Shown here piece by piece: positions 25,574-44,650 of a stretch of DNA of 64,000 bases. The notes under the pieces were generated by a model that was not told the origin of the DNA, did not search any database, and was given only the letters and a program-made list of their open reading frames with translations. Position 1 is the stretch's first letter. Every line of letters starts with the position of its first letter. Source of the stretch: Linnemannia hyalina (taxonomy: Eukaryota > Mortierellomycota > Mortierellomycetes > Mortierellales > Mortierellaceae); assembly GCA_019671135.1 (NCBI GenBank), contig JAHRHY010000013.1:1364001-1428000 (forward strand), in the 5' to 3' direction. Position numbers and translations under genes: made by a program.

Positions 25574-28048
25574 TTATTCTGTGTTCTGTTGCCCACTATG
25601 AAGAGATATGTCAGTCATGGAAGTAAACACTCCGTTCCTTGGGCTTTGGATATTTTTTATATGCCTTTTTATATCCTCTGCACATGAAGGGGCCGCATTG
25701 GTCTTGTTTCTCGCGACGTAAAGGCACAGGTCGATGAACCCCTGTGGGATCTTGAGATGTCGCAGACCGAGTTCCAGCATTCCACCTCTCTGACACGATA
25801 CCGAATCAAAGCACCGCTTCATGTCCTGCAGCAGCACCCAGACCTCTTTCTTGTACTCTCTGGCGTCCTCGAGAACCGCGTTCAGGATATGGATCGGGTC
25901 CTTGGTCATGGTTCCCTTGAGCACTGAGAAGTTGGGGCCGCGAAAGATGGAGTGGCGAGACAGCACCACGGTAAGCCGTTTCACCATGATGGAGAAGAAT
26001 ATCTTCCTGCCGTGCTCCAAAAGTGTGATAGGGCGTACCTCACTAATCCTTCCCGACCACACCGGCCCTTTCGGTATGCAATAGATCACCCCCTTCAGCC
26101 AATCCTCCGGCATCGCTCCTTGTACAAAGCACGCCTGAACTAGGACGACAAAAAGTGCTTGGGCAAGGGGGCCAAGCCGCTTCAAAAGATCTCCTGACAC
26201 CTTCGAATGTCCTGGTGCCTTGCCTGTTGGAGCCGCCGTCACCGCTGCACACACTTCTGCATAATCCGGTATCTCCATCACAGTGTCGTACCATTCCGTC
26301 CGAATGTCCTCCCTCGGTTGGTACGCCTCCTCCCATTCTTCGCTCGATGGTTGTGTAGGCCGTTCCTTGTGAAAAGTATCGCAAAAATACTGACGAACTC
26401 GTGCTTTGATCTCGCTTGGATCGTCAATGACATAGGTGACAGGAGAGACGTTTCCAGCAGCGTCAGGGTTGATAGGGTCATCATCGACAATGAGGTGGTC
26501 GAGGTTCACACGTCCTGCGACGATGTCGAGTATTCCTCGAATCGTCTGCCTTGTATGTGTCTGAAACCGGAGGTCGCGGTTCTCTATATGGGTGTTGATG
26601 ATATCCTGCACGTTGGCGGCATAATACTCCTGATGGTCCAGTCTCGCTTGCCGCCAAGGCCTTTGCACTTCTCGTACCCAGCCGTCCCACGTCTGCGTCG
26701 TTGCCTCCATGTCCGGTACATCGCTCAGTCCTAGTTGCTCTCCGTTCATTTGGTGCCAGTCGACAATCTTGCCATGTACACCCTCCTTGGTCGTCCCCTC
26801 CGCCAGCTGTAGTTCGATGAATGTCACTCGTGCGGACCAAATGACACCCCCGATCTCATGGATCTTGTTGAGTAGGAGCTCTTCGCCTTCGGGGGGAGGG
26901 GGCCGACCACCGGTGCGGGCGCTAGGGAGATGTGCAAATGCGGAGGACATGACAGTATTACGGAGTAGCTCCCAGGCAGCATTCAGAGGGAATCGTTGCA
27001 AATCACTCTTCGAAAAGGGATTCATCGCTTCACCGAGTTGAAAGGCGGCTGGGAACTGGGGGACATTATCCAGCCGTCCGTAGGAGCGGAGACAGCGTTC
27101 TATTTGTTCCGCAAAGGACTCCCAAGCCTCATTGTCGGCGTCTTCCGGTAGGAGCTTTTTGTCCTTTGGCCGCTGTGCGGCCAGTTCCGCTTGGTTTGCT
27201 GGCCGGATCTGGGTGTGGAGGTCAAAGGTTGCTAGAAACATGGAGTGGTCGCTGCTTTCAAAGTCGTCGGGTTCATAAGTGTTGGTGCGGAGTAGGTATG
27301 AAGCCAAACCCGAGGATGCCCATACCATATCTATACGACTGACGTCTGGACTGTCTGGAAGGTGGAATGTGAATAGAGGAGTAGTTGGATGTAGGGAGCG
27401 GAAAGTGTCGACAAAGCCACGACTCGACAGCCATGGGTACAAGCTGAGCTCTGGAGTCGAGGTCGTTCTGGTGGTGGAGTTGCGGTCGATGGCCGGATTG
27501 ACAGCGCCATTGAAATCGCCTAGCAGAAGGACGTGAGCGCCGTCTACTCTGTGCTTGTCGATCTGAGCGGTGACCCAGTCGTGGAGTTGTTGGAAGTCGG
27601 CTGGGTATGTTTTGGAGCCCTTGGGAGGGAAGTAACAGTTGATGACTGCCAGTTGGAATCCATGCTTGAAACCGAAACGGACACCGATGCCACGTCCGTT
27701 CTTATCCGAGAATGTTGCTGTGAGGTATGTTGCCCATGATTTGTGGATGAGAAGGCCGACTCCCTTCCCATTAAAGTGTGTTGATGTGTGGTTCCAGAGA
27801 CCAGTGTAGTGGTTGCTGCAGCGACGATGAAGAAGATGCTGCTGCTTGTCTGCCTGAATCTTGGTCTCCTGCACACCGAGAATACTGATATTGTGTTGGT
27901 TTGCGCGTTGCGTTAAATAATTGAAATAGTTGGTCTTGTTGCCACCTCGGACATTAAACGTTGCCACTGTGAAAGTGCGGAAGGGGTCGTGAAAAGGACT
28001 GGGATCGTAGCGCCCAGGGGTGTATGTTGGTATTGGTGTGTCAGACAT
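25574..28048 (-). CDS. LINE ORF2: APE endonuclease and truncated reverse transcriptase
   Basis: 825-codon frame. N-terminal endonuclease-exonuclease-phosphatase domain (about residues 25-270): ATFNVRGGN, GVQETKI, LLGDFNGAVNP and the SSDHSMF histidine motif that nicks target DNA. After a linker, reverse-transcriptase blocks begin near residue 610: PTGKAPGHSKVSGDLLKRL, then DMKRCFDSV, which holds the first catalytic aspartate. After FIDLCLYVARNKTNA (about 25700) the sequence no longer resembles a reverse transcriptase, and a stop follows at 25574. The F/YxDD motif, thumb and C-terminal part are absent. The ATG at 28048 shares its A with the ORF1 stop. Confidence 0.87.
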   Translation of the reverse strand: MSDTPIPTYTPGRYDPSPFHDPFRTFTVATFNVRGGNKTNYFNYLTQRANQHNISILGVQETKIQADKQQHLLHRRCSNHYTGLWNHTSTHFNGKGVGLLIHKSWATYLTATFSDKNGRGIGVRFGFKHGFQLAVINCYFPPKGSKTYPADFQQLHDWVTAQIDKHRVDGAHVLLLGDFNGAVNPAIDRNSTTRTTSTPELSLYPWLSSRGFVDTFRSLHPTTPLFTFHLPDSPDVSRIDMVWASSGLASYLLRTNTYEPDDFESSDHSMFLATFDLHTQIRPANQAELAAQRPKDKKLLPEDADNEAWESFAEQIERCLRSYGRLDNVPQFPAAFQLGEAMNPFSKSDLQRFPLNAAWELLRNTVMSSAFAHLPSARTGGRPPPPEGEELLLNKIHEIGGVIWSARVTFIELQLAEGTTKEGVHGKIVDWHQMNGEQLGLSDVPDMEATTQTWDGWVREVQRPWRQARLDHQEYYAANVQDIINTHIENRDLRFQTHTRQTIRGILDIVAGRVNLDHLIVDDDPINPDAAGNVSPVTYVIDDPSEIKARVRQYFCDTFHKERPTQPSSEEWEEAYQPREDIRTEWYDTVMEIPDYAEVCAAVTAAPTGKAPGHSKVSGDLLKRLGPLAQALFVVLVQACFVQGAMPEDWLKGVIYCIPKGPVWSGRISEVRPITLLEHGRKIFFSIMVKRLTVVLSRHSIFRGPNFSVLKGTMTKDPIHILNAVLEDAREYKKEVWVLLQDMKRCFDSVSCQRGGMLELGLRHLKIPQGFIDLCLYVARNKTNAAPSCAEDIKRHIKNIQSPRNGVFTSMTDISLHSGQQNTE

Positions 28049-28050
28049 TA
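28046..28050 (-). promoter_or_regulatory. TAATG stop-start overlap between LINE ORF1 and ORF2
   Basis: The ORF1 stop TAA (28050-28048) and the ORF2 start ATG (28048-28046) share one base. A UAAUG overlap is the known arrangement for termination-reinitiation in some LINEs such as silkworm SART1. Use here is inferred. Confidence 0.75.
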
Positions 28051-29719
28051 CAGTTCGGGGTCGCTTTGGGGTTCCTGCGTCTCCTCGACGGTGTTGTGAT
28101 AGCCATGTGGGGTGGCGCTATCGTAATGGTCGACCTCTCCATACTGTTCCTCTGTGCCAGATTGTTGAGACTGGCTGTTCGAAAAGTACTGATCAAATCG
28201 ATTCATAAGCTGTTTGTTCTCGTTGCGGAGGTCCGTGATCTGCTGTTCATAGGTTTCGCGTTGTCTTGCAAGGTCTGCACGGAGTTCCTGGATGGTCTCG
28301 TTCAACGTGTTGAGAATTTCGTTCATGTCTGTTGAGGCGGAGCGATTGTCCTGGGGGGCATCACGAACGACCGCCTTGCCCTTGCGGCTTGGTCCTCTCT
28401 CAGTAAACGCGCTCTCCTCGCGTTGGCTGTCGCCCTTGGCAAACGACTTGCCGCCGTGGTTGTTGGGGCGAAGGCTGTTGACTGAATATGCTAACAGTTT
28501 CGCAGGTGGTGTTACTGGGCGACCTTGGGCTTTCGCAGCGTCAAGTGCCGTCTCAGCAATGGAAAAGGCGACCAAAGCTGGGTCCGGAGTCTGGGAGTCC
28601 AGGACGATGACATGGGTGGGGGCGTCCATGAGTTCAACGTCTTCATCCATCGACCCACCGTCTTCCTCCCTCACTTCTGCCACCTGGACTGGTGCCGTCA
28701 AGTTGTTGTTTGGGTGTGTTCCGGTTCCCTGGAGTGAAGACAGAAAATGGGTAAACATGGCCTGCATATCCGCACGGAGAGAGGCATTGTTGGCTTGCAT
28801 GTCTGCGCGGATAGAAGCGATGGAGTCCTGTTGTTGTTGTTCCAGTTTGGCCATCTGAGCTTGAATAGGAGTTGATCTGTTTGTGGAGTTACCAGTTTGA
28901 GCAACCAAAGGGGTAGTAGCCGATGCTGCCCTTGACGAGGAGGTGGCCACCGCCGGAGGGGTCGAGGTGCCAATGGTGATTGGGTTGGATACAGCCGAAC
29001 CTCGGTTCTTAGGGACAGCTGCGGCCGACGCATAGCTCATTCCTGGGGTCGAACGAGTCGCTGTCGATTGTTTCCTGGCAGGCGCCGAGGCGCCACTGTT
29101 CTGAACTTGAGTAAAAGGGCGGGGGGCAGTGGATCGAGTCTGAGTACGTGCCTTGATGGTTTGGATGTTGGAAAGACGTCCGATGGTTGCGGAGACATTG
29201 GTTGATCTAATGTAACATTCGCTAACAAAGTGGGTCGGGTCTCCACAGTGGCGGCAAGTTGGTTGACTGGCGTTAACCCAGCATGTCTTGTGAGAACCGA
29301 TAATGACAGAGGCACTGGTGGCAATTTGCTGTTGGGGGGGGGATGAGAACAGGATGTGCGCCTCAGGCTGGCGCTTGCTGGTGTAAATGTTCCGGGGCAT
29401 GACAATCGAGTGGAAAGGTATCGGGGTAGCATTGGGGTCGCTTGGGTCCGGGTTGCAGAATAACTGGGCGATCTCGACCGGAGTAATGCCGGTAGGGAGA
29501 AGCGCAAGCTTCTTTGTAAGGGAGCTGTCGTACTGGACTGGCTCGTTGCCCAGCCAGGTCACCGTGGCGATGTCGTCTCGTACCTGTACGTAGGTCGTAT
29601 TAACGCTCTTGATGGCCTTAATGGCCTGGTCGGATTCGTAGATGACAGTAGCCGTGGCCATAGTGGCTTTGGCATTTAGAGCGACTTTTACCCGTTCGAT
29701 TATACCGTATTTGCTCAAT

Positions 29720-29724: not shown

Positions 29725-29931
29725 TGCAACAGGCGAAGACTGGGACAGAGAAGTATAGAACGGGGACGAGAGTTGAAGCAGTGATGATTGATGTTATTAC
29801 TATGGTACAACTAAATATATATACAAAGTCGCCAACTAGGTTTCTAGGTGTAGTGTCATAGTGAGTCAGAGATGATAGAGAGTGACAAGGAATGACTAAC
29901 TAGAGAGCAATGATAAACCTAATATGTTGCA
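29725..29931 (-). repeat. LTR A (3' LTR of element A)
   Basis: 207 bp, beginning TGCAACA and ending TGTTGCA. It matches LTR B and LTR C along its length by eye and holds an internal TATATATA stretch. Confidence 0.93.
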
Positions 29932-29943
29932 CCTTCCCCTCTT
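29932..29943 (-). promoter_or_regulatory. Polypurine tract of element A
   Basis: On the reverse strand AAGAGGGGAAGG directly precedes the 3' LTR, the position of the plus-strand DNA primer in LTR retrotransposons. Confidence 0.85.
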
Positions 29944-29956
29944 AAAAAAAAATCCG

Positions 29957-32900
29957 CTAAGTCCTAAGGCCATGGTCGCGCTTGTACTTGTTGAGGATGT
30001 CCTTACAGTGTGCCAGTTCACTCTCTGGTTCCCATGTCCAGTCCTCGCGCGGGTATCCTTGCCATTGTAGAAGGTACTCCATGTTGTTGTTAACCTTCCT
30101 ATGATCTGCAATGGCCTCGACCTCATACTCTTCCTCGTCTTCAACGATAACCGGTGGTGGCCGTGCTGGTGTTCTTGGTCCTAGCGTCGCAGGTGATGGT
30201 TGGTAGCGTCGGAATCGGTCGACGTGGAAGACGGGGTGAATCTTCATGGACGGTGGAAGATCAAGGCGGAAGGAGACCGGGGACAGCTGTTCAACAATGG
30301 TGTGGGGGCCGGCAAAGCGAGCCAAGAGTTTCTGCGACGTGCGGGTGCGGTCCGAGGGTAAGGTGATATTCTCAAGGTTAAGGAGAACGTGGTCACCAAC
30401 CTTGAAATCATGCTCTCGCCGATGGATGTCGGCGTTGGCTGCTTGACGTTCTTGGGCGGCAGCAAGGGACTCCTTAGCGAGGGTGAGGGCTTCGCTTCGA
30501 GATTGCACGAACTCGTTAACCGATGGGTTGGGGCCGGGAGTAGGGGTCAACAATGACATGGGCATGTTGGGATGGGCTCCGGAGTTCAAGAAGAACGGGG
30601 AGACTCCAGTGGAGGCATTGGTGGCGTTGTTCGTGGCAAATTCGGCGGCGGAAAGTAAGAGGTCCCAGTTAGACTGCCGTTGGTCGACAAAGTTACGGAG
30701 CATGGTGATAAGGGTGCGGTTGGCACGCTCGGTCTGGCCATCGGTCTGAGGGTGGAAGGCAGTCGACATGGCAAGGTGGACGTCCATCAGACGGCTCAAT
30801 TCTTTCCAAAAGCGGCTCGTGAACTTGGTATCGCGGTCGGAGACAATGGTGGTTGGCATGCCGTGCAAGCGGAAAACATGGTCGAAAAAAATGCGTGCAA
30901 CTTGCGAGGCGGAGTCGGTGGTGTGGCAGGGGGCAAAGTGCACTTGCTTTGTGAGTTTGTCAACAAAGACCGTAATGGAGTCAAAGCCGCGTGGGGTCTT
31001 GGGTAGGGGGCCGACAAAGTCCATTGTCACCGTTTGCCAGGGTCGATCGGGAATGGGTAGGGGCTGGAGGAGGCCAGCAGGTGGTTGGTTGCTGGGCTTA
31101 GTCCTTTGGCACGACTCACAGGTCTGCACATACAGCCGGGTGTCCTTCGCCATAGATGGCCAGAAGAACCGCGAGTGGAGATGACCGTACGTCTTCTCGA
31201 AACCGAAGTGACCAGCTATAGCGGAGTCGTGTGCATCGTGAAGAAGAGAAAGCCGAAGGTCAGAGTTCGAGGGGATACAAACAAGTAAAAGATCATTACG
31301 TTGAATGCAAAGAACACCATCAACAAGAGAGTAATTAGACGGTGGACTTCCCTGGAGGCAGCTTTCATAGATCGGTTTGAGGCGGTGATCCTCTTTGTAA
31401 CCATCCATCAGGCGCTGCCGGAGCCTGGGGTCGAGCTGTACTGAGAGTGTGTTAATCTCTCTATGGTCCGGTCGGCGAGACAGGGCATCTGGGACAATGT
31501 TGTCGGCTCCTTTCTTGTACTTGAAGGTGAAGTTGTATTCCTGCAACAGTTCCATCCAGCGGGCCTGACGGCGGGTGAGTTTGGGTTGAGTGGGGAAGTG
31601 TTGGAGGGTGGCATGGTCGGTGTATACGATGAAGTGGGATCCGTCCAGATAGTAGCGCCATGTCTTCAATGCATGTACAACAGCCAACAGTTCCTGTTCG
31701 TGTGTTGGGTAGTTGCGTTCGGCAGAGTTCAGCTTGCGGGAGGTGAAGGCGACGGGGCGCGACTCGCCATGCTCATCGGTCTGAAAGAGAACGGCACCGA
31801 GAGCAAAGCCGGAGGCATCGGTTTCGACGGTTGTTAGAAGGTCGGGGTCGAAGATACGTAGAACAGGTGCTTTACTGATGGCCTCCTTCAGAGTCGTAAA
31901 CGCTACTTCCTGCTCCTGAGACCAAGAGAAAGGAACGCCTTCACCTAAGAGAGCGGTCAACGGTAGGGCGATCGAGGCAAAGTTAGCGATGTACTGATGA
32001 TAGAACTGTGCAAGACCAACAAACTGCTGAACATCTTTCTGCTTCTGGGGACGGGGCCATTCACGGATGGCACGAACGAGACCGCCGCTCGTATGGATAC
32101 CGTCCTTGGAGATGACGTGGCCGAGGAACTCGGTCTCTTTCTGCATAAAGGAGCACTTGCTCAACTTGGCGTAGAGACCGTACTTGCGGAGGAGCGTGAG
32201 GACGGATCGGAGATGTTGTAGATGTTCGGCCTCGGTGCGCGAGTAGATAAGAATGTCGTCGAGGTAAACAACAACCCACTTGTCGAGAACAGGGTCTAAT
32301 ACTCGTAGCATCATATTGGAGAAGGACGCCGGTGCATTCGTTAACCCGAAAGGGACCACATTAAATTCGAAATGGCCGTAGCGGCAACGGAAGGCTGTCT
32401 TGTGTGTGTCCTCTTCTGCTATACGTTGCTGATGGTAACCGGAGAGGAGGTCAAGTTTGGTAAAGTAGCGTGCCCCGCGGAAACGGTCGATAAGTTCATC
32501 AATGCGGGGAAGGGGGTGTCTGTTCTTTTTTGTAATCCGGTTTAACCCTCTGTAATCAACACACATACGCAAGGAACCATCCTTCTTTTTCACAAACAAT
32601 ACAGGGGCACCATAAGGGGAGGTAGAGGGTTTGATAAAGCCTTTGCCAAGTAGGTCGTCGAGTTGCTTCCTTAGTTCATCCAATTCAGCAATCGAGAGAC
32701 GTATAACAGGGCGAAAGGGGGGATCAGCGCTCGGATCAGTTTCGATCTTCATTGCATCGCCTCTGTCAGGGGGAAGGCCAGAGGGGAGGGAGGAAGGGAA
32801 AACGTCGGGGAACTCGTTGTGGACGATGTTGTGAATGTCGGGTGAGAGTGGAGGGGAGGTCGGTTTGTTGTCATTACTGTTGTTGTCGTTGGTCTTTTTA

Positions 32901-33901
32901 GCGATGTTGACGAGGGCGAGGTAGACAGCGTTTCCAGGTTGGGTAGCAAGGGAGTGAAAGTGAAGGTGAGAGAGGAGTTTCCCTTGTGTGCGAGCGGAGA
33001 TGGAGTTGGCGTTGGCACCACGACAGCGCCAGAGAACAGTGTGTCCATTGTGGGTGAAGTGAAGGTCGTTGTTTCGCCAGTTGATGAAAGGGTTGATGGT
33101 CGTTAGCCAGGGTTTTCCAAGGATGAGGTCGTAGTTGGAGAGGGGGTAAATGAGTGCTTCCAGTTTGTCGGAGTAGTGGTCGCGGTCGATGGTAAAGGTG
33201 GAGGTGGATGATGAAATGGAAGAGGAACCGTTTGGAAGGATGATGGGGATGGAGGGGCCAGGAGTGCGAGTGAGGGAGTGTTGTTTGCAAAAAGAAGAAC
33301 TGATGACGTTCCCTTCCGCACCGCAATCGATTAAAATACGCGCAGGGGCACCAGCCACATTACCAATAAACGACAAGAGTGTACGGGAGGCTTTCTCAGC
33401 CGTGAAAGCGTGCAGACGGACGGATTTGTGTCGCAAGCGTTTGGTCCTGCGCTTGGACATGGGTTGGTCTAAAGCAGCAGGAGAGGAGAGTGGGTCCAGG
33501 TCCACTTCTTCTGATGGGCTAAGACCAACAGGCGAGGTATCAGATACGTCGTCGGTGAGTTGTAACTCATCGTCAAAGGGTACCGTGGTGGAGTGAGTGT
33601 TGGGGGCAGTGGTGGTCGAGTCGATGGCAATTGAGGAGGGAGTACGAGGCGAGGCAGGGATGGATGAGGGAAAAAGGGAGAGTGGAGGAGGAGAGAAGGA
33701 GAGTTTGTGTAGGCTACGAGGTGCGGATGTGGTAGTGCGAATAATGGATACAGAGGGGGGAGTGTTTTTGATAGCAGAATTTTTATTCTTGGAACTGTAA
33801 CTTAACTCTGGTAAGGAAACACTCCCTTTGTCCAGAGGAGAAAGGGAGGGAACGTCGACGATCAAGTCCTGGACTAAGCCTGATCGTCGGAGGCTTTTCC
33901 C
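29957..33901 (-). CDS. Pol polyprotein of element A (PR-RT-RH-IN-chromodomain)
   Basis: Single frame of about 1300 residues. Numbers count from 33865. Protease site LIDCGAEGN near 180 (DCGA in place of the usual DSGA/DTGA). Reverse transcriptase about 390-600 with [16 protein letters not shown] and VVYLDDILIYS. RNase H about 680-800 with VETDASGFALGAVLF. Integrase zinc finger about 876-920 (H..H..CESC). Catalytic residues D949 (TMDFVGPLP), D1010 (VSDRDTKF) and E1046 (GQTERANR). A C-terminal chromodomain at about 1245-1300 (EVEAIADHRKVNNNMEYLLQ, then WTWEPESEL) is expected to guide insertion to modified histones. There is no ATG near the start. The frame is open back to the slippery site at 33901-33895, so expression by a -1 shift from gag is likely. 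Confidence 0.93.
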   Translation of the reverse strand, partial: GKSLRRSGLVQDLIVDVPSLSPLDKGSVSLPELSYSSKNKNSAIKNTPPSVSIIRTTTSAPRSLHKLSFSPPPLSLFPSSIPASPRTPSSIAIDSTTTAPNTHSTTVPFDDELQLTDDVSDTSPVGLSPSEEVDLDPLSSPAALDQPMSKRRTKRLRHKSVRLHAFTAEKASRTLLSFIGNVAGAPARILIDCGAEGNVISSSFCKQHSLTRTPGPSIPIILPNGSSSISSSTSTFTIDRDHYSDKLEALIYPLSNYDLILGKPWLTTINPFINWRNNDLHFTHNGHTVLWRCRGANANSISARTQGKLLSHLHFHSLATQPGNAVYLALVNIAKKTNDNNSNDNKPTSPPLSPDIHNIVHNEFPDVFPSSLPSGLPPDRGDAMKIETDPSADPPFRPVIRLSIAELDELRKQLDDLLGKGFIKPSTSPYGAPVLFVKKKDGSLRMCVDYRGLNRITKKNRHPLPRIDELIDRFRGARYFTKLDLLSGYHQQRIAEEDTHKTAFRCRYGHFEFNVVPFGLTNAPASFSNMMLRVLDPVLDKWVVVYLDDILIYSRTEAEHLQHLRSVLTLLRKYGLYAKLSKCSFMQKETEFLGHVISKDGIHTSGGLVRAIREWPRPQKQKDVQQFVGLAQFYHQYIANFASIALPLTALLGEGVPFSWSQEQEVAFTTLKEAISKAPVLRIFDPDLLTTVETDASGFALGAVLFQTDEHGESRPVAFTSRKLNSAERNYPTHEQELLAVVHALKTWRYYLDGSHFIVYTDHATLQHFPTQPKLTRRQARWMELLQEYNFTFKYKKGADNIVPDALSRRPDHREINTLSVQLDPRLRQRLMDGYKEDHRLKPIYESCLQGSPPSNYSLVDGVLCIQRNDLLLVCIPSNSDLRLSLLHDAHDSAIAGHFGFEKTYGHLHSRFFWPSMAKDTRLYVQTCESCQRTKPSNQPPAGLLQPLPIPDRPWQTVTMDFVGPLPKTPRGFDSITVFVDKLTKQVHFAPCHTTDSASQVARIFFDHVFRLHGMPTTIVSDRDTKFTSRFWKELSRLMDVHLAMSTAFHPQTDGQTERANRTLITMLRNFVDQRQSNWDLLLSAAEFATNNATNASTGVSPFFLNSGAHPNMPMSLLTPTPGPNPSVNEFVQSRSEALTLAKESLAAAQERQAANADIHRREHDFKVGDHVLLNLENITLPSDRTRTSQKLLARFAGPHTIVEQLSPVSFRLDLPPSMKIHPVFHVDRFRRYQPSPATLGPRTPARPPPVIVEDEEEYEVEAIADHRKVNNNMEYLLQWQGYPREDWTWEPESELAHCKDILNKYKRDHGLRT

Positions 33902-34872
33902 GACTCGGGGGAATCACCCACGGCTACTTGATAAACCCATCGTCCTTGGCGGTTGTTGTTGTTGCCACGGTTGGTATTGTTGTTGTCGCCGTAGATGGGG
34001 CACTCCTTTGCATAATGTCCAGGTTGGCGACAGCGACGGCAAGCATTGTTGTTTTTACACCATTCGCGTTCCTGAGGGGTCAGGGAAGGGGGATTACCGT
34101 TGTTGTTGTTTCGGGGGCCGTTGTTGTTATTGTTGTTGCGGTTGTAGTTATTGTTATGACCCATGTTTCTCTCTAGGCGATTAAATCGTTGGGTGATATT
34201 GTTGAGGGCGATCTGGATGTTGTCGATTTCCATGGGGGTGGCTTGAGAGAGAGCGGAGGAAGAGGTGAAGGAAGAAATGATGGGGGCGGAGGCGATGGCG
34301 AGCGAGTTGGTCTTGGGGCCGGTGTCGGGTTTGAAGGAGTAAATGCGGTCCATCTCTTGGGCGTATTGAAAGATCTGAATGAGGGTGATATTGGGGTTTT
34401 GAATAATGTGTCCTTCGATCATCTGTTGAAGAACCAAGGGGCAGTTGTCGATAAAGGATGTTTGGGCGAACTCGTTGACCGTGGTCTTGGCAGCGTCGGT
34501 GGAGGCATAACCAAGAAGGGCGCCCAAAAGTTCCTTGAATGTAGATAAGTAGGTCGAAAAGTTGGTGGTCATGCGAAGATTGGTGAGGTGTCGTCGACAG
34601 GAGCCCGCAAAGTTGTTGGGAATGTACTCTAGCTTAAAAGCAGGAGTAAACTCGGTCTCGAAGTTGCAAGTATCAGGGAGCCCACATCCATCAAACCATC
34701 GGGCAGGGCCAGGCGTGCCCAAGTACGAGAGAGCGTGGGGTGTTCGTTCAGTCTCACTTATCTTAGCAAGGTTGAAGTAGCGGTTAACCGCAACGAGCCA
34801 GGCCAAGGCAGAGAAACCGTCGCGGGCGCCTGTAAAGACAGGAGGGGGGTTAAGGCGGGCAGGGGTAACCAT
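33874..34872 (-). CDS. Gag of element A
   Basis: 332 residues from the ATG at 34872 (MVTPARLNPPPVFTG), which suits a Ty3/gypsy capsid start; the frame is open upstream but without another ATG. The capsid-like region includes ALAWLVAVNRYFN and LGTPGPARWFDG. A CCHC zinc knuckle CRRCRQPGHYAKEC lies near the C-terminus after an Asn-rich stretch. The stop is at 33876-33874, and a -1 slippery heptamer lies about 20 bases before it. Forms the particle that packages element RNA. Confidence 0.88.
   Translation of the reverse strand: MVTPARLNPPPVFTGARDGFSALAWLVAVNRYFNLAKISETERTPHALSYLGTPGPARWFDGCGLPDTCNFETEFTPAFKLEYIPNNFAGSCRRHLTNLRMTTNFSTYLSTFKELLGALLGYASTDAAKTTVNEFAQTSFIDNCPLVLQQMIEGHIIQNPNITLIQIFQYAQEMDRIYSFKPDTGPKTNSLAIASAPIISSFTSSSALSQATPMEIDNIQIALNNITQRFNRLERNMGHNNNYNRNNNNNNGPRNNNNGNPPSLTPQEREWCKNNNACRRCRQPGHYAKECPIYGDNNNTNRGNNNNRQGRWVYQVAVGDSPESGKASDDQA
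33895..33901 (-). promoter_or_regulatory. Putative -1 ribosomal frameshift site GGGAAAA
   Basis: In the gag frame the codons read G-GGA-AAA, a textbook X-XXY-YYZ heptamer. Slipping back one base moves directly into the pol frame (GGG AAA AGC CTC), which is open from here through the protease. The gag stop follows 19 bases after the heptamer. A downstream RNA structure was not assessed. Confidence 0.7.
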
Positions 34873-35064
34873 GACTGGTAGTGCAGAGAGAAGTGCGGAG
34901 AGGTCAAAAATGTCCAGAGTGTAAGAGGGTACGAAGGAAAATAGGGGCAGGGAATGAAATTCAGGGCTGGTGTGCAGAGAGAGCTGGGACGAGGGAAAAT
35001 TAAAGTAAAACGCGGGCAGTGAAAACGAGGAGGGAAAAATCAAGAGGTCAGTGGAACGAGGGAA

Positions 35065-35076
35065 CCTTTGCTACCA
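35065..35076 (-). promoter_or_regulatory. Primer-binding site next to LTR B (element A)
   Basis: TGGTAGCAAAGG on the reverse strand directly follows LTR B. It would pair with a tRNA ending CCTTTGCTACCA; the TGGTAGC start resembles initiator tRNA-Met primers used by Ty1/Ty3. Confidence 0.75.
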
Positions 35077-35283
35077 TGCAACAGGCGAAGACTGGGACAG
35101 AGAAGTATAGAACGGGGACGAGAGTTGAAGCAGTGATGATTGATGTTATTACTATGGTACAACTAAATATATATACAAAGTCGCCAACTAGGTTTCTAGG
35201 TGTAGTGTCATAGTGAGTCAGAGATGATAGAGAGTGACAAGGAATGACTAACTAGAGAGCAATGATAAACCTAATATGTTGCA
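35077..35283 (-). repeat. LTR B (internal LTR of element A)
   Basis: 207 bp, same ends as LTR A and C. It is not flanked by a target duplication of its own: CCA on one side and GCAGG on the other. This supports origin by internal duplication rather than by separate insertion. Confidence 0.92.
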
Positions 35284-35516
35284 GCAGGAGTAAACTCGGT
35301 CTCGAAGTTGCAAGTATCAGGGAGCCCACATCCATCAAACCATCGGGCAGGGCCAGGCGTGCCCAAGTACGAGAGAGCGTGGGGTGTTCGTTCAGTCTCA
35401 CTTATCTTAGCAAGGTTGAAGTAGCGGTTAACCGCAACGAGCCAGGCCAAGGCAGAGAAACCGTCGCGGGCGCCTGTAAAGACAGGAGGGGGGTTAAGGC
35501 GGGCAGGGGTAACCAT
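35284..35516 (-). pseudogene. Duplicated 5' fragment of element A gag
   Basis: Starts with an ATG at 35516, exactly 644 bases from the full gag ATG at 34872, and codes for the same residues up to CNFETEFTPA. It then runs into LTR B and stops at 35271. This is the truncated gag copy between LTR C and LTR B. Confidence 0.9.
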
Positions 35517-35708
35517 GACTGGTAGTGCAGAGAGAAGTGCGGAGAGGTCAAAAATGTCCAGAGTGTAAGAGGGTACGAAGGAAAATAGGGGCAGGGAATG
35601 AAATTCAGGGCTGGTGTGCAGAGAGAGCTGGGACGAGGGAAAATTAAAGTAAAACGCGGGCAGTGAAAACGAGGAGGGAAAAATCAAGAGGTCAGTGGAA
35701 CGAGGGAA

Positions 35709-35720
35709 CCTTTGCTACCA
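35709..35720 (-). promoter_or_regulatory. Primer-binding site next to LTR C (element A)
   Basis: Same 12 bases, TGGTAGCAAAGG, as beside LTR B, with no gap to the LTR. This is the outer, functional position for starting minus-strand DNA synthesis. Confidence 0.78.
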
Positions 35721-35927
35721 TGCAACAGGCGAAGACTGGGACAGAGAAGTATAGAACGGGGACGAGAGTTGAAGCAGTGATGATTGATGTTATTACTATG
35801 GTACAACTAAATATATATACAAAGTCGCCAACTAGGTTTCTAGGTGTAGTGTCATAGTGAGTCAGAGATGATAGAGAGTGACAAGGAATGACTAACTAGA
35901 GAGCAATGATAAACCTAATATGTTGCA
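35721..35927 (-). repeat. LTR C (outer 5' LTR of element A)
   Basis: 207 bp, TGCAACA..TGTTGCA, and appears identical to LTR B. It is flanked outside by the target duplication GCTGC and LINE ORF1 sequence. Confidence 0.93.
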
Positions 35928-35932
35928 GCTGC
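35928..35932. repeat. Target-site duplication GCTGC, right copy (element A)
   Basis: Partner of 29720-29724. The LINE ORF1 frame reads through this copy into the LTR. Confidence 0.9.
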
Positions 35933-36496: not shown

Positions 36497-37787
36497 TTTG
36501 GGTGTATTTTTTGTTTAAGTTGGGTTTTTTTTGGAAAGTTGATATGAGAGTGAATAAAAAATTTGATATTTAGAAGCAAAAAAGTAAGGGGGATTGGAAA
36601 TACTCAAGCAGCCGGGATGGATACTTGAGGAATAGGGGTAAAAATGCGAATAACTGTTTTGGAGCAGACAGCACTTTTGTGGTGTAAAGGAAAGAAAAGT
36701 AAAATTTTTTTTTTTTTTTTTGTCCACGATTTTATTTCTCTAAAGAACAATTCATGTAGGTAATCCAAAAATAAAAGGGCTATTTGTGAGGACCCCTTCC
36801 CAGTACACCATCCCTTAGTCACAGTCCGGTTCTAATAACGCTGGCTCTGCGCAACAATCGTTGTCGCTCTTCACGACAAAAACGGAAGAAAATACAAAAG
36901 CGATCTATCCAGTTATTACTCTCAACTAAAACACCTTCATCTGAACAACCAGGAGATAGCAAAAGTACTTTCTTCCCAGTGCCGTTTTTCAAGTGTTCGA
37001 CGTCACCTCCATCCATGCACATGTGTGCAACGCAACAACCCAAAAAAATAAAAATGGTTGTCACGCGCCTCCTGGACAGGGGAGACTAGCGCGAAAAGAG
37101 GGGGGGTTGCCATTGTGCTTGCGCACTTGTGTGGGAAAAAAACAAAAGTTTCGCTCCTCGTTTCCCACACACCTTCAAGGCAGAAAGGTTGGAACGTTAG
37201 CCATCCAGGCCTGGGGTTCTTTTTATACTGTGAGGGACTGACAGCGGTGCTCTAAGACGCTTAAGGCAGAACTCATAGAGACTGCGCGAATACTCATATC
37301 ACCAAGTAGTTCCAACATGGCACCTCATGAGCAAAGATCCATCCATGCACTTCCGTGCTTCGCAAGGGAAGTCAACCCTCGCACCGACCTGGACAGGGGG
37401 GCCGGGTCTTGAATCCGTCAAATCCGTAGCGTATCTCCTTGTGGGTGGGACCAAGGACCTCTCGCAAAGAGGATGGAAAGGCAGACGACCAACTCCATTC
37501 GACTGACATTCCGTGCGGCGATGGGGGACCATCTCTCTCTCATCTCGCTCCAGGGACCGACCTGCCGACCTCATAACACCCGCCTTGAAACTTCCAAGCT
37601 CTCCTTGCATGTCGCTGACCCGGGGTGGTAGGCGCCTTGGCAACACTGACGCCAACGGTGGTCCTGCTCAAGGGCCTTGTCGGTTTAATGGTTGGATGGA
37701 TGGATAGCCCCGACGTGTGGATGGAGGAAGGCGTGACTGTTCTTGGAGACGAAAAATGGGAATTGGGAAAGAAAGATCAAAGAAAAG
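36497..37787. other. Upstream of LINE ORF1 and unassigned sequence
   Basis: The first part is probably the LINE 5' leader. An 18-base T tract at 36704-36721 is an A tract in the LINE's sense direction and could mark the 3' tail of another reverse-strand insertion. Reverse-strand TATAAAAAG near 37220 is followed by small frames, one of 81 codons (37064-36819) with no known domain. A reverse-strand frame at 37655-37299 is Arg/Pro-rich without a domain. I cannot assign a gene. Confidence 0.4.
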
Positions 37788-37897
37788 TAAAAGGGAAAAC
37801 GCAAACAAAGAGAGCAAAAAAGAAGGGAAAGGAAGGAAAGTAGTGGGAAAGAAGAAAAAAGGGAAAGTGGTGAATATAGGGGTGGCAATTCACGACA
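37788..37897 (-). repeat. LTR remnant (LTR0) of the element B family
   Basis: About 110 bp matching the last part (plus-strand sense) of the element B LTR, from GTAAAAGGGAAAACGC to the terminal CACGACA, with a small A-tract length difference. The rest of that LTR is missing. It is followed by TTTC and then by LTR1 of element B. In the site before element B inserted, its end would have been 18 bp from the tRNA gene. Confidence 0.88.
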
Positions 37898-37901
37898 TTT
37901 C
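37898..37901. repeat. Target-site duplication TTTC, left copy (element B)
   Basis: TTTC between LTR0 and LTR1, repeated at 44543-44546 after LTR2. The base before it is A on both sides, so the duplication could be 5 bp (ATTTC). Confidence 0.75.
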
Positions 37902-38728
37902 TGTGGGTGCCTCGAGCAACGTCTGCAGGAGATACCACGCAGTCTCAACTAGACTGGCAAAGAAGTGGAGGAAGAGGAAGAGGAAGAGGAAGTGATCTCA
38001 ACTAGATCACGCTCAGGGACGACAGGGGAATGAATGCGGATCTTCGGCGCAAAAAGGGGACAACGGGTTCGAGGTTCTCAACCTAGAATGGTATGATTAA
38101 CAGTGGGGGGAAGATGTTTATTTAGTGGCTGTTCGGACAACGAGAACAGCCGTTGACAGGGGAGGGGGAGAGGAACTTACCTAGAATGGTATGATTAACA
38201 GTGGGGGGAAGATACTGTTCAATCATCCATTCCAGGTGTCCTTTTATACTATCTGACTAAGGTCGCTAAACTACTACTTGTGGGGTCACTGAATGAAAGA
38301 GAATAAGATGAAGACGTAAAAAAAGAGATGGCCCGGGGGAGCTACTACTAACTGGTGTAAGAGTTAACAACTTGATGAACAACGAAAGGAAGTAGGAAGG
38401 GGCCATCAACAACAAAGAAAGGGCCTTTGACAAAGAGGGTCTTTGTCAAAGGGATGAACAACATAAAAGACAAGAAGAGGAAATAATAAAAGTGACTCGG
38501 GGCGATGGCTCCTTGTGTCACTGGGTGTTGAGAGCGAGCGGGGCGACGATAGTTGTCATCAACAAAGGGGAAAGGTGTAAACGAAAGTGTAAAAGAGGTA
38601 GGAGTCGCGTTTGCGGGTAAAAGGGAAAACGCAAACAAAGAGAGCAAAAAAGAAGGGAAAGGAAGGAAAGTAGTGGGAAAGAAGAAAAAAAGGGAAAGTG
38701 GTGAATATAGGGGTGGCAATTCACGACA
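37902..38728 (-). repeat. LTR1 (3' LTR of element B)
   Basis: 827 bp, starting TGTGGGTGCC and ending CACGACA on the plus strand. It holds a duplicated 35-bp block (38081-38115 and 38179-38213, beginning ACCTAGAATGG) and a reverse-strand TATAAAAG at 38248-38241. Confidence 0.93.
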
Positions 38729-38739
38729 CTCCCCAACTT
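38729..38739 (-). promoter_or_regulatory. Polypurine tract of element B
   Basis: Reverse strand AAGTTGGGGAG directly precedes the 3' LTR. It is shorter and less pure than the tract of element A. Confidence 0.7.
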
Positions 38740-38760
38740 AAATTGGAGCCGTCCCGGCGA

Positions 38761-41700
38761 CTAAGCTAGTGCGGTGCATTCGTGGAGGCAGTAGGCGGGG
38801 ACGCTCGGAGAAGACGACTGTTGAGGGGGGAGCTGCATCATTTGCAGCTGCTGGTTACGACGGAAGCGGCGAGTGGGAGGAACTCTTGTCAGTTCTTCTC
38901 TGTAAACTCGTGCTGCGTCAGCGGCGGATCCCATCATGGGCGCTTGATAGTCGGGACCGCGGCGGATGTGATACTCTTCGGTGGCGCGCTGCTGCGTGCG
39001 CATGTCGGCTACGCGACGGCTTTCGGTATCCGAGAGGAAATCGTCAGGCAGCCCATCATCATCGTTGTCGCGGGCGGCCTCCATAGTGTGTTTGGTCCTG
39101 GCAAACCACACTTTTCGCTGAGCCTCATCGCTAGGGGCTGTTGCGATCTTCAGACGGTCTTGGTGCACCAAATCCTCCTTGGGCGTACCATCTCCCCAAC
39201 GGAGCTGATAGGTGGACAGTGGCGTAACGCGAACCACTTCTAGGGGACCATACCAGTGGGGTTGCAGCTTCTTGCGACCATAATTCTTGACGAAGACGAA
39301 ATCACCGACTGCGAACTTCGCATCCTCGACGACGTGCGACTCTGCGTGTGCTTTGACCATGGATGACGCTGCATCTTGCTGCGTCTGAAGGTGGGCTTCT
39401 CGGAGTTCGTCAATCTCCTTAAACGTCTTTCTGCGATGTTCCAAAAAATCGCTCGGATCGGAGAAATCAAACAGAAAGGGACGGACGGGGTCTTGAGGGA
39501 TACGCGGTTCAATACCGTATACCAACTTGAAGGGGGAGAGCTGAGTGCGCTGTGAGATGTGCACACGACAAGCAAAGAGGGACTGGTGCAGGTACTGGTC
39601 CCAGCGGACGCGATGAGTACCGACATACTTGTTGAGCATATGTCCGATAACACCATTAAGGCGCTCGCATTTGCCATTGGATCGGGGGTGGTAGGCGGAG
39701 GTAGCCATGTGCTTGATGTTCAGCTTCTGGAGATAGCGCTGCAGAACGTCAGACATAAAGTTGGCGCCTCGGTCGCTAACAATCTCGGAGGGACAACCAA
39801 ACTGAAGGAAGATTTCCTCATACAGGAAAATGGCGACTGCTTCGGCAGTGGCATCGGGAAGGGCGCGAGCAATTGGCCAGTTGGTTGCGTAGTCGATGGC
39901 AGTGACGATCCATCGATTGCCTTGCTTGGTGAGCGGCATGCGTCCTATGAAATCGATTCCCCATCGTTCAAAAGGGCGCGCCGGAGCCAAGGGGTGGAGA
40001 GGAGCCACAGATCGGCTTCCAGGCTTCACGAGCTGGCAGGGTTGACATTCTCGAGTCAACATCTTGATATCGGAGCGGAGGGTTGGCCACCACATGCGCG
40101 TCTTGGCCAAGTTGTAGGTGCCAGACTGTCCAAGATGACCCAGATCGGCGTGCAACTCTGAAAGGCGATCCAAGCGCTCGACATAGGGCACGAAGGGAAC
40201 TGAGGCTTCTTCAACTAAGCGGAACAATTCACCTTCTTCAATGACGAAGAGAAGAGCTTGATGGCGTACAAGCTTCTTGATGGCAGGGTCGGTGTCAGGA
40301 GGAAAAGTGCCTGACAATAAAAATTCAGGAACAAGGAGAGGCCAGTCCCAGGTGTCGATGTGTCGAACTTGGTGGACATTGTTGATCTCGAGACGGGATA
40401 AGGCATCGGCGGCGACATTGGTTTTGCCGGGCTTGTACTGGATGGAGAGGTTATAAGGGGCCAGGAACTCGACCCATCGAGTTAATCTCTGGCTGAGATG
40501 AGGCTGAGAAAAGATGAACCTCAGGCTGGCGTGATCCGTAAAGACGACGTTCTCGGGTGCTCCCAGCACATACGATCGCCAGGCTCTACAGGCATGTACG
40601 ATCGCCAACATCTCTCTCTCGTGGACCGGATAGTTTCGTTCAGCAGCTTTAAGCTTGCGGGATTCGTAGGCGACTGGATGTCTCTTGCCGTTTACTTCTT
40701 GATACAGCACTCCACCGGTTGCGTCGTCAGATGCATCAGTCTCCATGGTGTATGGCTTATCTGGATCTCCGCAAAGTAAGGTCGGGGGGGTCGTCAATAC
40801 GAGACGGACTCCATCGAAGGCGGCTTGCTCGACTGGGCCCCACGAGGCAAGCGGTCGAGTCTTAAACTTGTTGTGGTCGGGTCCATCTTTTAATAGCTTG
40901 AAGAGGGGACCGGCGACTTGGACCAAGTGATACACAAAGCGGCGGTAGTAGTTGATGAAGCCAATAAACGATCTCAGCTGCTGGACGTTCTTGGGTATCG
41001 GCCAGTTGTCGAGGGCCTTGGTCTTGGCAGGGTCGACTTGAATGCCTTGACTGGATATAACATGACCAACAAAGGTAATGGAGGAAGTGCCGAACTCGCA
41101 CTTGCTCCTCTTGGCGTGCAGCTTATGCTGTCGAAGGAGGTCGAGGGCAATACGGATGTGCTCGAGGTGGTCTTCAAAAGTCTTGGAGAAGACGAGAATG
41201 TCATCGAGAAATACGACGATGTACTTGTCCAGGTGATCGCGGAAGATGTCGTTCATGAGGCCTTGAAAAGAGGCCGGGGCGTTGGTTAAACCAAAGGACA
41301 TGACGCGGTACTCGAAATGGCCGTATCGAGTGGAGAACGCTGTCTTGGGGATGTCAGGTTCGGCGATCCGGAGCTGATGGTAACCTTGCTGTAGATCCAT
41401 CTTGCTGAAATATTTGGCGCCTTGAAAACGATCAAAAAACTCGTCTAGAAGGGGTAGCGGGTACTTGTTCTTGGTGGTGATAGCGTTAAGCCCTCGGTAG
41501 TCAATGCACAGTCTTAGAGAACCGTCCTTCTTCTTGACAAATAATACCGGGGCGGCCCAGGGTGACGTGGACGGCTGTATATATCCAAGCTCGAGCAGTT
41601 CATCCAACTGCTCTCGCAGAACGCGGAGTTCCAGCGGCGACATCTTGTAGGCCTTCTTGGCCACCGGCGCTGCGTCTCCAGTAGGGATCTCGTGGTCAAA

Positions 41701-43443
41701 ACCAGGACGTGGAATGGGGAGATCGGTCAAAGGTGCAAACACGTCATTGGCATACTCTTCGACCAGGGCATCAACTTGTTGCCGTTGCTCAACGGTCAGG
41801 GGAGCGATAGGGTCCTCAACTTGGACGGGCTCGGATTGAGTGTCTGGTACTGCCGTTTGCATTACCCAAACCACTCCTGCGTCGATCGTGTCTTTCGCCT
41901 CGACGGTCTTGATAAACTTCTGCACATCATCGTGCACGGTGCCTAAGCGGGGCTCTTCCAGCTCGGCGAGTAGTTGTGGCGAAGGCTTCGACATAGCCTT
42001 GACCTCAAAGTCCTGACCTTCGTAGGCCCAGGATAAAGTGTATTGCTCCCAGTCCATGTGGGGCTTAAACTTGGCCATCCATGGAATACCGAGGAAGAAA
42101 TCGCGCGCCAACTTGCGGACGATGGTAGCTCGGATGGAATGGGCCATAGTTCCAACGGTAATTCGGACGACAACTTGTCCGAGGGCACTGCTGTCTTTGC
42201 TCTCCCCGAGCGCAAGACGTAGCGGCAGTGGTTGGCTGACCCGCTCCTCGCTTTCAACAGCGGTGGGGTCCAGCAGACGAATTCTTTTAAGTGCCTCCTC
42301 TGAGACGACATTAACGTTCGCGCCATTATCTACAAGGGCTTCGAACTGAGTTCCGGCAGCATTAAGCGGAACAACGACAAGGGGGAAGGCGTGAGGGTCA
42401 AACTCGTGAGCCTCGACGACGGTCATGTGGGCGGCGGTTGGTTGGCGGCCATTGTGGTGACGACGGTAGTTCTGGGGTACCGACGAGTGAGATGAACCTC
42501 TCATAGGGCAGTCGGCTCTGTAGTGACCGGCTTGTCCGCACTCGTGGCAGATTGTTGGCCTCTTGCAATCAGCGGCCTTGTGATCGCCACGGCAATTGAA
42601 GCAGGAGATAGTGTCAACCTCCATAGGGGTGGGACCAGAGTCGCGACGGCCAGCGTTGCTGTCGCGGCGGAAGCTCACTTGCGGGGGGCCGTTTGGTCTC
42701 GAAAACGGGTGCACAGCACTCTGCCGGCGGTTGGTAAAGAAACCAGTATTGGTGTTGCCTGAGATTGAGTTGCGGGGGGCGGGGGCAAAAGGAGCAGGGT
42801 TGTTTCTTGGTGCTCGGTTAGGGTTGTACGTGGGCGCAATCATGGGAGGATTGGGACGGCCTCTCTGGCGCGTCAAGGACGACTGGGTTGTGATGCCCAT
42901 CTGTTGAGCCATCTGCGATTTAATTTCGCAAGCGGTTTTAACGTCATCCCACGTCTTGACTTGTCTCTCGATCAGGTAACGCGACAGGAAAAGAGGACCT
43001 TGTGACTTAAACTGGTGTATCTTCTCACCATCAGTCAGCTTGGAGGCGATGGGGGCAGCAGCGAACTCGTAACGCTGAAAGTACGAATTCGGTGTATCGT
43101 TCCTATCCCAGACGACGGCTGCAAGGTTGTTGCGATGTGTAGACTCCAGCTCGTCAGTGCCAAACTGGCGACTGAAGGCGGCCTTGAACTCGGTCCAGGT
43201 GAGTTCAGGGTGGGCCTCGTCCAAGTTCTGTCCCCAGACTTGGGCAACACCTCGGAGCTTGAGGATAGATGCTGTCGGCCAGTCAGTGTCGGGCAACTTA
43301 CACAGCTTGGCAGTCATCTCGATCTGCTTTAGCCATGTCTTGGCCGTGTAAGGGTCGTTCTGACTGAAGTCGAACGTCTCGGTATCGGACGGGAGGGTGG
43401 TCCTTCGAAGAGAGCTGGCCACTGGGATAACTTCATCGACCAT
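38761..43443 (-). CDS. Gag-Pol polyprotein of element B (single frame)
   Basis: 1560 residues from the ATG at 43443 ([11 protein letters not shown]; context ccaccATGG). The frame is open upstream into the LTR, but this ATG starts a typical capsid. Gag capsid about 20-190. Two zinc knuckles at 281-312 ([13 protein letters not shown] and [14 protein letters not shown]). Protease DNGA at about 372-375, unusual for DSGA/DTGA. Reverse transcriptase about 610-790 with FLDD at 745-748. RNase H with TDASDD from 902. Integrase zinc finger H1098, H1103, C1134, C1137. Catalytic D1164 (IDFIGRMP), D1224 (VSDRGANF) and E1260 (GKCERLNG). The integrase tail holds [20 protein letters not shown] and no clear chromodomain. 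Gag and Pol are fused without a frame change. Confidence 0.94.
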
Positions 43444-43700
43444 GGTGGGAAAACGTAACGGGTAGAGAAGGGAAAAGAAAAAATGAGAGGGAGGGAAAAA
43501 AGGTAAAATAAAGTTGATCCGGAGGAATAGGGTTTTTCGTGATTTAGGAGAGGTAAAAAAAATGAATAGAGGGTGTAGGCTTGTAGTAAGAGCAAAAGAA
43601 AAAAAGAAAGAGAGCAAAGCTAAAGTAAAATAAAGTATGGATGTGGGGCTAATAATTGTGGAGAGCGGGAAAGAAAGAGAAACGTAGTGGAATGAAGGTG

Positions 43701-43712
43701 CCTTTGCTACCA
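43701..43712 (-). promoter_or_regulatory. Primer-binding site of element B
   Basis: TGGTAGCAAAGG on the reverse strand, three bases after the 5' LTR. The same 12 bases occur in element A although the two elements differ elsewhere, pointing to the same tRNA primer. An initiator tRNA-Met ending CTTTGCTACCA is the likely one. Confidence 0.75.
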
Positions 43713-43715
43713 ATT

Positions 43716-44542
43716 TGTGGGTGCCTCGAGCAACGTCTGCAGGAGATACCACGCAGTCTCAACTAGACTGGCAAAGAAGTGGAGGAAGAGGAAGAGGAAG
43801 AGGAAGTGATCTCAACTAGATCACGCTCAGGGACGACAGGGGAATGAATGCGGATCTTCGGCGCAAAAAGGGGACAACGGGTTCGAGGTTCTCAACCTAG
43901 AATGGTATGATTAACAGTGGGGGGAAGATGTTTATTTAGTGGCTGTTCGGACAACGAGAACAGCCGTTGACAGGGGAGGGGGAGAGGAACTTACCTAGAA
44001 TGGTATGATTAACAGTGGGGGGAAGATACTGTTCAATCATCCATTCCAGGTGTCCTTTTATACTATCTGACTAAGGTCGCTAAACTACTACTTGTGGGGT
44101 CACTGAATGAAAGAGAATAAGATGAAGACGTAAAAAAAGAGATGGCCCGGGGGAGCTACTACTAACTGGTGTAAGAGTTAACAACTTGATGAACAACGAA
44201 AGGAAGTAGGAAGGGGCCATCAACAACAAAGAAAGGGCCTTTGACAAAGAGGGTCTTTGTCAAAGGGATGAACAACATAAAAGACAAGAAGAGGAAATAA
44301 TAAAAGTGACTCGGGGCGATGGCTCCTTGTGTCACTGGGTGTTGAGAGCGAGCGGGGCGACGATAGTTGTCATCAACAAAGGGGAAAGGTGTAAACGAAA
44401 GTGTAAAAGAGGTAGGAGTCGCGTTTGCGGGTAAAAGGGAAAACGCAAACAAAGAGAGCAAAAAAGAAGGGAAAGGAAGGAAAGTAGTGGGAAAGAAGAA
44501 AAAAAGGGAAAGTGGTGAATATAGGGGTGGCAATTCACGATA
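43716..44542 (-). repeat. LTR2 (5' LTR of element B)
   Basis: 827 bp, matching LTR1 throughout by eye, except that the plus-strand end reads CACGATA instead of CACGACA. In the element's sense the conserved 5' TG has become TA, or one base belongs to the target duplication. The LTR TATA box is at 44062-44055. Confidence 0.93.
44055..44062 (-). promoter_or_regulatory. TATA box in the 5' LTR of element B
   Basis: TATAAAAG on the reverse strand within LTR2, suited to drive transcription of the element's genomic RNA about 30 bases downstream. Confidence 0.55.
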
Positions 44543-44560
44543 TTTCTATCAAGCAAATAC

Positions 44561-44641
44561 GTCAATATGGCCGAGCGGTTAAGGCGTGTGACTAGAAATC
44601 ACATGGGTTCTCCCGCGCAGGTTCAAATCCTGCTGTTGACG
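44561..44641 (+). tRNA. tRNA-Ser (anticodon AGA)
   Basis: 81-base cloverleaf without an intron. The acceptor arm GTCAATA pairs with TGTTGAC with one G-T pair, and the discriminator base is G at 44641. D-arm/A box TGGCCGAGCGGTTAAGG. The anticodon stem TGTGA/TCACA encloses loop CTAGAAA, with AGA at 44594-44596. A long variable arm (TGGGTTCTCCC) is typical of tRNA-Ser. T arm/B box GGTTCAAATCC. A TTTT Pol III terminator follows at 44647-44650. The insertion edge of element B lies 18 bp upstream, close to where Pol III transcription should start. Confidence 0.95.
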
Positions 44642-44646
44642 CTATC

Positions 44647-44650
44647 TTTT
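44647..44650 (+). terminator. Pol III terminator of tRNA-Ser
   Basis: TTTT, six bases after the mature tRNA 3' end, with a second T run shortly after. This is the simple termination signal of RNA polymerase III. Confidence 0.8.

Follow-up and report, generated by a model that had tools for sequence, protein, structure and literature searches.

A Ty3/gypsy-type element of Linnemannia hyalina found just upstream of tRNA and 5S rRNA genes in one orientation, at sites shared with other retroelements

Why should two retrotransposons of one family end at the same base in front of one transfer RNA (tRNA) gene? The question is raised by a 64,000-nucleotide stretch of the genome of the fungus Linnemannia hyalina (the window, whose coordinates are used here unless a locus or contig is named), in which a Ty3/gypsy-type element, element B, lies upstream of a tRNA-Ser(AGA) gene and abuts a fragment, LTR0, of a long terminal repeat (LTR) of its own family. 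An earlier note, made from the sequence alone, had proposed a Ty3-like targeting of genes transcribed by RNA polymerase III (Pol III), to be tested by collecting the LTRs of the family and measuring their distances to such genes. This collection supports the proposal: 12 of the 17 insertions with a U3 end were found 6–23 bp in front of a gene transcribed by Pol III, which is a tRNA gene in ten cases and a 5S ribosomal RNA (rRNA) gene in two. We consider it very probable that B is an autonomous-looking, recently active Ty3/gypsy element with an integrase complex that is guided to the region where Pol III initiates.

Element B is full length (37902–44542, minus strand) and is bounded by LTRs of 827 bp that are 100% identical across 825 aligned bp, namely LTR1, the 3' LTR (37902–38728), and LTR2, the 5' LTR (43716–44542), whose U3 end faces the tRNA gene. 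The 4-bp word TTTC is present at both outer ends (37898–37901 and 44543–44546). When recomputed, the spacer between the end of the 5' LTR and the tRNA-Ser(AGA) gene, the putative Pol III target, which was located by ARAGORN at 44561–44642 on the plus strand and is divergent from B, was the 18 bp reported before. The gag-pol region is one unbroken open reading frame (ORF) of 1560 aa (38761–43443, minus strand), in which Pfam recognised reverse transcriptase, RNase H and integrase above their cut-offs, and Gag (23.5 versus a cut-off of 24.1 bits) and a zinc knuckle below theirs; an aspartic protease was not matched by Pfam at E ≤ 1e-3, and no finer search was made. This arrangement of LTRs and Gag, reverse transcriptase, RNase H and then integrase is that of Ty3/gypsy elements (Metaviridae). 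As also in these elements, a primer-binding site adjoins the 5' LTR (43701–43712, minus strand) and a purine-rich tract, identified by eye, adjoins the 3' LTR (38729–38735, minus strand). The primer-binding site comprises 12 nt complementary to the 3' end, plus CCA, of a CAT-anticodon tRNA-Met of this genome (locus L058), which we take to be the initiator. LTR2 terminates in TA instead of CA; repeat-induced point mutation was considered as the source of this terminus and discarded, as nothing else supported it.

The 51.5-Mb assembly containing the window (50 contigs) was searched at the DNA level with LTR0 and LTR1, which gave 34 matched pieces, and with the most diverged long copy, which gave 31; together these represent 20 insertions. 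A 53-bp piece (L068) and a copy that had lost its U3 end (L069) were excluded before counting, and LTR0, whose distance is reconstructed, was kept out of the 17 insertions counted. Distances run to the start of the mature RNA or, for 5S rRNA, to the Rfam match, Pol III start sites being unmapped. The 12 spacers measured 6, 7, 8, 8, 8, 11, 15, 15, 17, 18, 21 and 23 bp. Ten of the 17 insertions lie at tRNA genes, with spacers of 8–23 bp: in addition to B in the window (18 bp), these are at tRNA-Phe (8 bp in L009 and again in L013/L014), tRNA-Leu (8 bp, L012), tRNA-Thr(CGT) (11 bp, L021), tRNA-Ala (15 bp, L017), tRNA-Ser(CGA) (15 bp, L023), a second tRNA-Ser(AGA) (17 bp, L016), tRNA-Gly (21 bp, L011) and tRNA-Asn (23 bp, L015). 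The two at 5S rRNA genes measure 6 bp (L010) and 7 bp (L067) from the Rfam match. In two diverged copies, a solo LTR of another family, X, stands between B and the gene: B is 513 bp from a tRNA-Thr gene in L019, with X at 15 bp, and 387 bp from a tRNA-Gly gene in L022, with X at 18 bp. If LTR0 and these two displaced copies are included, the count becomes 15 of 18. At L010 (898–8866, contig C22), the 5S genes lie near the 3' part of a large-subunit (LSU) rRNA, and B sits between two 5S copies.

Instead of copies scattered without enrichment near Pol III genes, the outcome that the earlier note had named as contrary to its proposal, the genome-wide survey showed enrichment. The insertions cluster close upstream, but with a spread (6–23 bp) that is broader than the sharp peak expected at 15–20 bp. 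Taking 1552 tRNA genes, the number of first-look candidates (63 of them scored), the chance that one U3 end falls within 25 bp upstream of a tRNA gene on the correct strand is 7.5e-4, and that of at least 10 tRNA placements among 17 is 1e-27. Chance is excluded as the source of the placement of B.

The orientation of the insertions was fixed. Fifteen insertions have a Pol III gene on the U3 side (13 tRNA and two 5S), and in every one of them the U3 end of the 5' LTR points towards that gene (two-sided sign test, 6e-5), so that transcription of the element runs opposite to that of the gene. Target-site duplications of 4 bp were exact in nine of the 11 insertions in which both ends were compared, with nine different words, and carried one mismatch in the other two. 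The element of contig C48 (L013/L014, C48:1759720–1778960), with LTRs 18 kb apart and other retroelements inside it, among them a copy of element A, described below (C48:1770203–1775761), and another gypsy integrase (C48:1763433), has TATC on both sides. The integrase is 100% identical and free of stops in four B copies (contigs C1, C5, C22 and C48), and the LTR pairs are identical in the four elements compared, both of which indicate recent activity. These four copies are all at Pol III genes, three within 18 bp and one at 102 bp.

The integrase region of B (491 aa, 38764–40236, minus strand) was modelled in three dimensions. By sequence it matches the integrases of foamy virus and of Ty3 (7q5b_A, 1.6e-20), the foamy virus scoring higher; by fold, foamy virus comes first and Ty3 from rank 10. 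The Ty3 integrase, 7q5b, is the one retrotransposon recognised among the PDB matches listed. The AlphaFold model has a mean predicted local distance difference test score of 78 and appears to contain N-terminal, core and SH3-like C-terminal domains, with a long helix (residues 261–300) linking them, the naming being read from secondary structure. Beyond the C-terminal domain the model continues as helices of declining confidence, with no second small barrel. Named relatives of this integrase were found in Entomortierella parvispora (79% identity over 64% of the query), Mortierella sp. GBA39 (96% over 32%) and Haplosporangium gracile (91% over 23%). We infer that a factor of the Pol III machinery serves as the tether, and since both tRNA and 5S genes are used, the data suggest one common to the two, TFIIIB foremost. 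In such a mechanism, the integrase would most likely bind an initiation factor of Pol III (TFIIIB, or TFIIIB together with TFIIIC/TFIIIA) at tRNA and 5S genes alike; joining of the cDNA, staggered by 4 bp, would take place 6–23 bp before the mature RNA begins, and an integrase complex held asymmetrically would always place the 5' LTR towards the gene.

The second claim raised by the locus, that two elements of the family used one position, was also upheld. LTR0 (37788–37897, minus strand; the left edge may equally be read as 37787) is a genuine piece of a B-family LTR, 99.1% identical to the B LTR over 110 bp with one gap. It holds the U3 end only, from LTR position 716 onwards, and terminates in CACGACA directly at the left TTTC, so that its endpoint is the later insertion point of B; with B taken out arithmetically, it lies 18 bp from the tRNA gene. 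The description of LTR0 as an older relative applies to the order of insertion, LTR0 having come first, and not to the sequence, which at 99% identity belongs to the same subfamily. The remaining part of its LTR was not found within the window. Sequence resembling a long interspersed element (LINE) comes within ~16 bp of the left edge of LTR0 (36705–37771, minus strand): it begins with poly-T, its first 339 bp are 99% identical to part of an insert in L011, its last 41 bp are identical to a stretch of L037, and its middle portion is unmatched. In L011, L012 and L017, LTRs of B are interrupted at positions 706–729 by LINE-type inserts that have poly-T on the side away from the tRNA gene. Because LTR0 begins at position 716, near these breaks, and has LINE-like DNA ~16 bp away, it is best read as a B LTR cut by a LINE-type insert.

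It is unlikely that LTR0, instead of being a separate insertion, arose as a side effect when B itself inserted or when elements recombined with one another. The near-identity of LTR0 to the B LTRs, its position on the same TTTC and the absence of its other part from the window would fit such an origin. However, B lacks neither LTR and is flanked by a TTTC duplication of its own, so that LTR0 was most simply present beforehand, and the same kind of layering, of B with X, is seen again at L022, L017 and L019. At L022, where B and X share GATC, a single base has been used twice, as it has by LTR0 and B in the window.

Two other gypsy families of the same genome served as controls. Element A (29726–35931, minus strand) carries a chromodomain (Pfam Chromo, 1e-13), and no tRNA gene and no Rfam match were found in 19 outer flanks of ~280 bp each from 12 elements. 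Family C, whose integrase has the next score after B in the integrase search (31% identity), has at least 53 matched LTR pieces in many dispersed places (40 of 111 candidates scored); no tRNA or 5S gene was found at 12 of its LTRs (140 bp on each side; perhaps not all are solo LTRs) or at one full element with its flanks. At its 5' end, A has a 647-bp direct tandem duplication with an extra LTR copy of ~210 bp (34639–35931), and directly to its left lie LINE ORFs for an endonuclease and a partial reverse transcriptase (25574–29718), possibly from a LINE cut by A. In L090 (1–718), an LSU rRNA match is followed, ~81 bp beyond its 3' end, by the start of one family C element.

Several observations weigh against a steered integration of B. 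An intact copy (L018) lies 102 bp from its tRNA-Arg gene, and near two diverged copies, L020 (~70% identity) and L066 (76%), no Pol III gene was found: the DNA read on the U3 side, ~1 kb or more, gave no tRNA and no Rfam match, 5S included. The spread of 6–23 bp exceeds that of Ty3. On the U5 side there is a tRNA-His gene ~140 bp away in L009 and L013, and a second 5S gene ~97 bp away in L010, orientation having been scored by the nearer gene in each case. No chromodomain was detected in B by Pfam at E ≤ 1, in the same run that gave 1e-13 for A, or in the model with its low-confidence tail; the integrase chromodomain that marks chromoviruses is thus missing from B in the Pfam test, and the tether would be another surface, or a degenerate domain that was missed. 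Finally, the flanks of A and C are small samples of copies, and the data come from one genome and include no de novo insertions. As to L018, the stretch between its LTR and the tRNA-Arg gene was considered as a hidden Pol III gene on account of words resembling A and B boxes, seen by eye, and rejected: these are only ~13 bp apart, and Rfam lists the tRNA only. L018 thus stands as an exception.

Could the placement have arisen without a protein tether? In favour of an integrase that prefers a local motif, or open A/T-rich DNA before tRNA genes, are the TATCAAG- or CATCAAG-like bases near the junction that are common to several targets. Yet the 4-bp targets vary (nine words), 5S genes are used at a similar distance, and the position of B follows the gene with a fixed orientation, which makes a DNA preference distinctly unlikely. 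We give still less credence to survivorship, that is, to wide integration followed by purifying selection that spares only the copies just upstream of Pol III genes. A single genome leaves some room for selection against insertions elsewhere; however, the other gypsy families, in the samples of A and C, are located elsewhere, C being widely dispersed, and each of the four B copies with identical integrases, whose identity marks them as very young, lies at a Pol III gene. Nor are the 6–23 bp range and the single orientation readily explained by selection, and we infer that targeting, not selection, explains the placement of B. Segmental duplication, in which some insertions would have been copied along with their tRNA genes, has hardly any probability: although two sites are divergent His/Phe pairs (L009 and L013/L014) and two are tRNA-Ser(AGA) genes (the window and L016), there are eleven gene contexts (Ser AGA, Ser CGA, Phe, Gly, Leu, Asn, Ala, Thr CGT, Thr AGT, Arg and 5S), the flanking letters differ even within the His/Phe and Ser pairs, and the nine distinct exact duplications refute it for most sites.

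In front of tRNA genes, B is stacked with two further families. Family X is a 365-bp solo LTR; a single-copy query found four places, all upstream of tRNA genes, and a fifth copy is in L017. The five copies (L017, L019, L022, L026 and L027) occupy distances of 15, 16, 17, 18 and 19 bp upstream of the tRNA in one orientation, the 16 bp of L017 being reconstructed without B. X ends in TG...CA, with 4-bp target-site duplications, read by eye, that are exact in L022 (GATC) and L027 (AATT), carry one mismatch in L026 and are not clear in L019. That X might itself be a Pol III gene, given an A-box-like word near its start, was ruled out by these ends, the duplications and the placement upstream of tRNA genes. 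In L019, a very short poly-T insert was seen by eye within X at ~120 bp.

The other family, of LINE type, consists of poly-A elements with an RNase H domain. A search with its 3' end gave at least 54 matches (40 of 276 candidates scored), and 30 loci were fetched (L036–L065). Thirteen of them have a tRNA gene on the 5' side, divergent in every case, 11 reach the end of the locus and are uninformative, and in six the flank is visible without an ARAGORN tRNA. Among these six, B is inserted between element and gene in L044, leaving 144 bp to the tRNA without B; L055 and L057, which share the same printed flank, have a B-box word as expected for a tRNA ~150 bp away; L051 and L052 continue into more LINE sequence; and for L046 there is no explanation, which makes it an exception. 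When L011, L017 and L023 are added to the 13 (L012 is the same locus as L036 and was not added), the 5' end lies 119–174 bp upstream of the tRNA at 16 sites (mean 141, standard deviation 15), distances that were measured to where homology with a single reference copy stops and are accurate to some tens of bases. Where older LINE-type inserts lie beyond B or X, subtraction of the later arrivals brought them to the same position, with 144 bp (L011, the same insert as in L044), 129 bp (L012), 132 bp (L019) and 121 bp (L017). Three retroelement families probably measure out their sites from the Pol III promoter, each at its own distance and in one orientation (B at 6–23 bp, divergent; X at 15–19 bp; the LINE-type family at 119–174 bp, divergent), with late arrivals inside or beside earlier ones forming a readable record of layers. 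How tRNA genes remain functional with so crowded an upstream region is a question for which the stacked families provide a natural experiment.

The fixed orientation, the 5S targets, the undetected chromodomain and the presence of other families at the same sites all go beyond the earlier note. A search of the literature by title and abstract opening, with subscription journals mostly outside its coverage, returned no tRNA- or Pol III-targeted retroelement in Mortierella or Mucoromycota. The pattern of B is Ty3-like, and is a variant of it by its fixed divergent orientation, in a lineage without such a report in the literature searched. Pol III-targeted gypsy elements as such are already known from ascomycete yeasts and social amoebae.

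Ty3 is primed by methionine tRNA and duplicates 5 bp of its target. B, likewise of Ty3/gypsy type, has a tRNA-Met primer site and sits a few bp upstream of Pol III genes, and differs in its 4-bp duplications, the lack of a detected chromodomain and its distant host. The insertions of Ty3 precede Pol III start sites by a few bp, and occur in both orientations with TFIIIC (PMC5911963), unlike B with 15 of 15 in one orientation; its integrase contacts TFIIIB, the C-terminal domain meeting TBP and a vestigial chromodomain Brf1 (PMC8632968). Tyl3, Ylt1 and Tyl6 of Yarrowia, and beta and Tca8 of Candida, are gypsy-type elements near tRNA genes (PMC5911963) and resemble B in this, but their hosts are ascomycete yeasts. 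DGLT-A of Dictyostelium, like B, is a gypsy element with a single ORF just upstream of tRNA genes, at ~15 bp (13–33), and has no chromodomain (PMC5006619), none having been detected in B either; it inserts in either orientation (PMC5911963) and its host is amoebozoan, whereas B has a fixed orientation and a fungal host. Also in Dictyostelium, the non-LTR element TRE5 inserts at a set distance of ~50 bp upstream of tRNA genes (PMC5006619). The LINE-type family does so at 119–174 bp, and is possibly a Pol III-targeted LINE in a fungus.

B shares its choice of targets and a fixed orientation with Tj1 of Schizosaccharomyces japonicus, which uses tRNA and 5S genes 5–11 bp upstream of mature tRNA ends, and whose authors were aware of no further wild-type LTR element, nor of any retrovirus, that inserts in one orientation only (PMC4600332). 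In Tj1 a stop codon separates Gag from Pol, where B has one open frame, and Tj1 is co-directional with its target gene, whereas B is transcribed opposite to it. With B in Mortierellaceae, oriented opposite to Tj1 and lacking a detected chromodomain, a repeated origin of Pol III targeting with different integrase surfaces becomes testable. If the orientation is fixed, the integrase complex must sit asymmetrically on the promoter, and this asymmetry could be dissected by comparing Tj1, B and Ty3.

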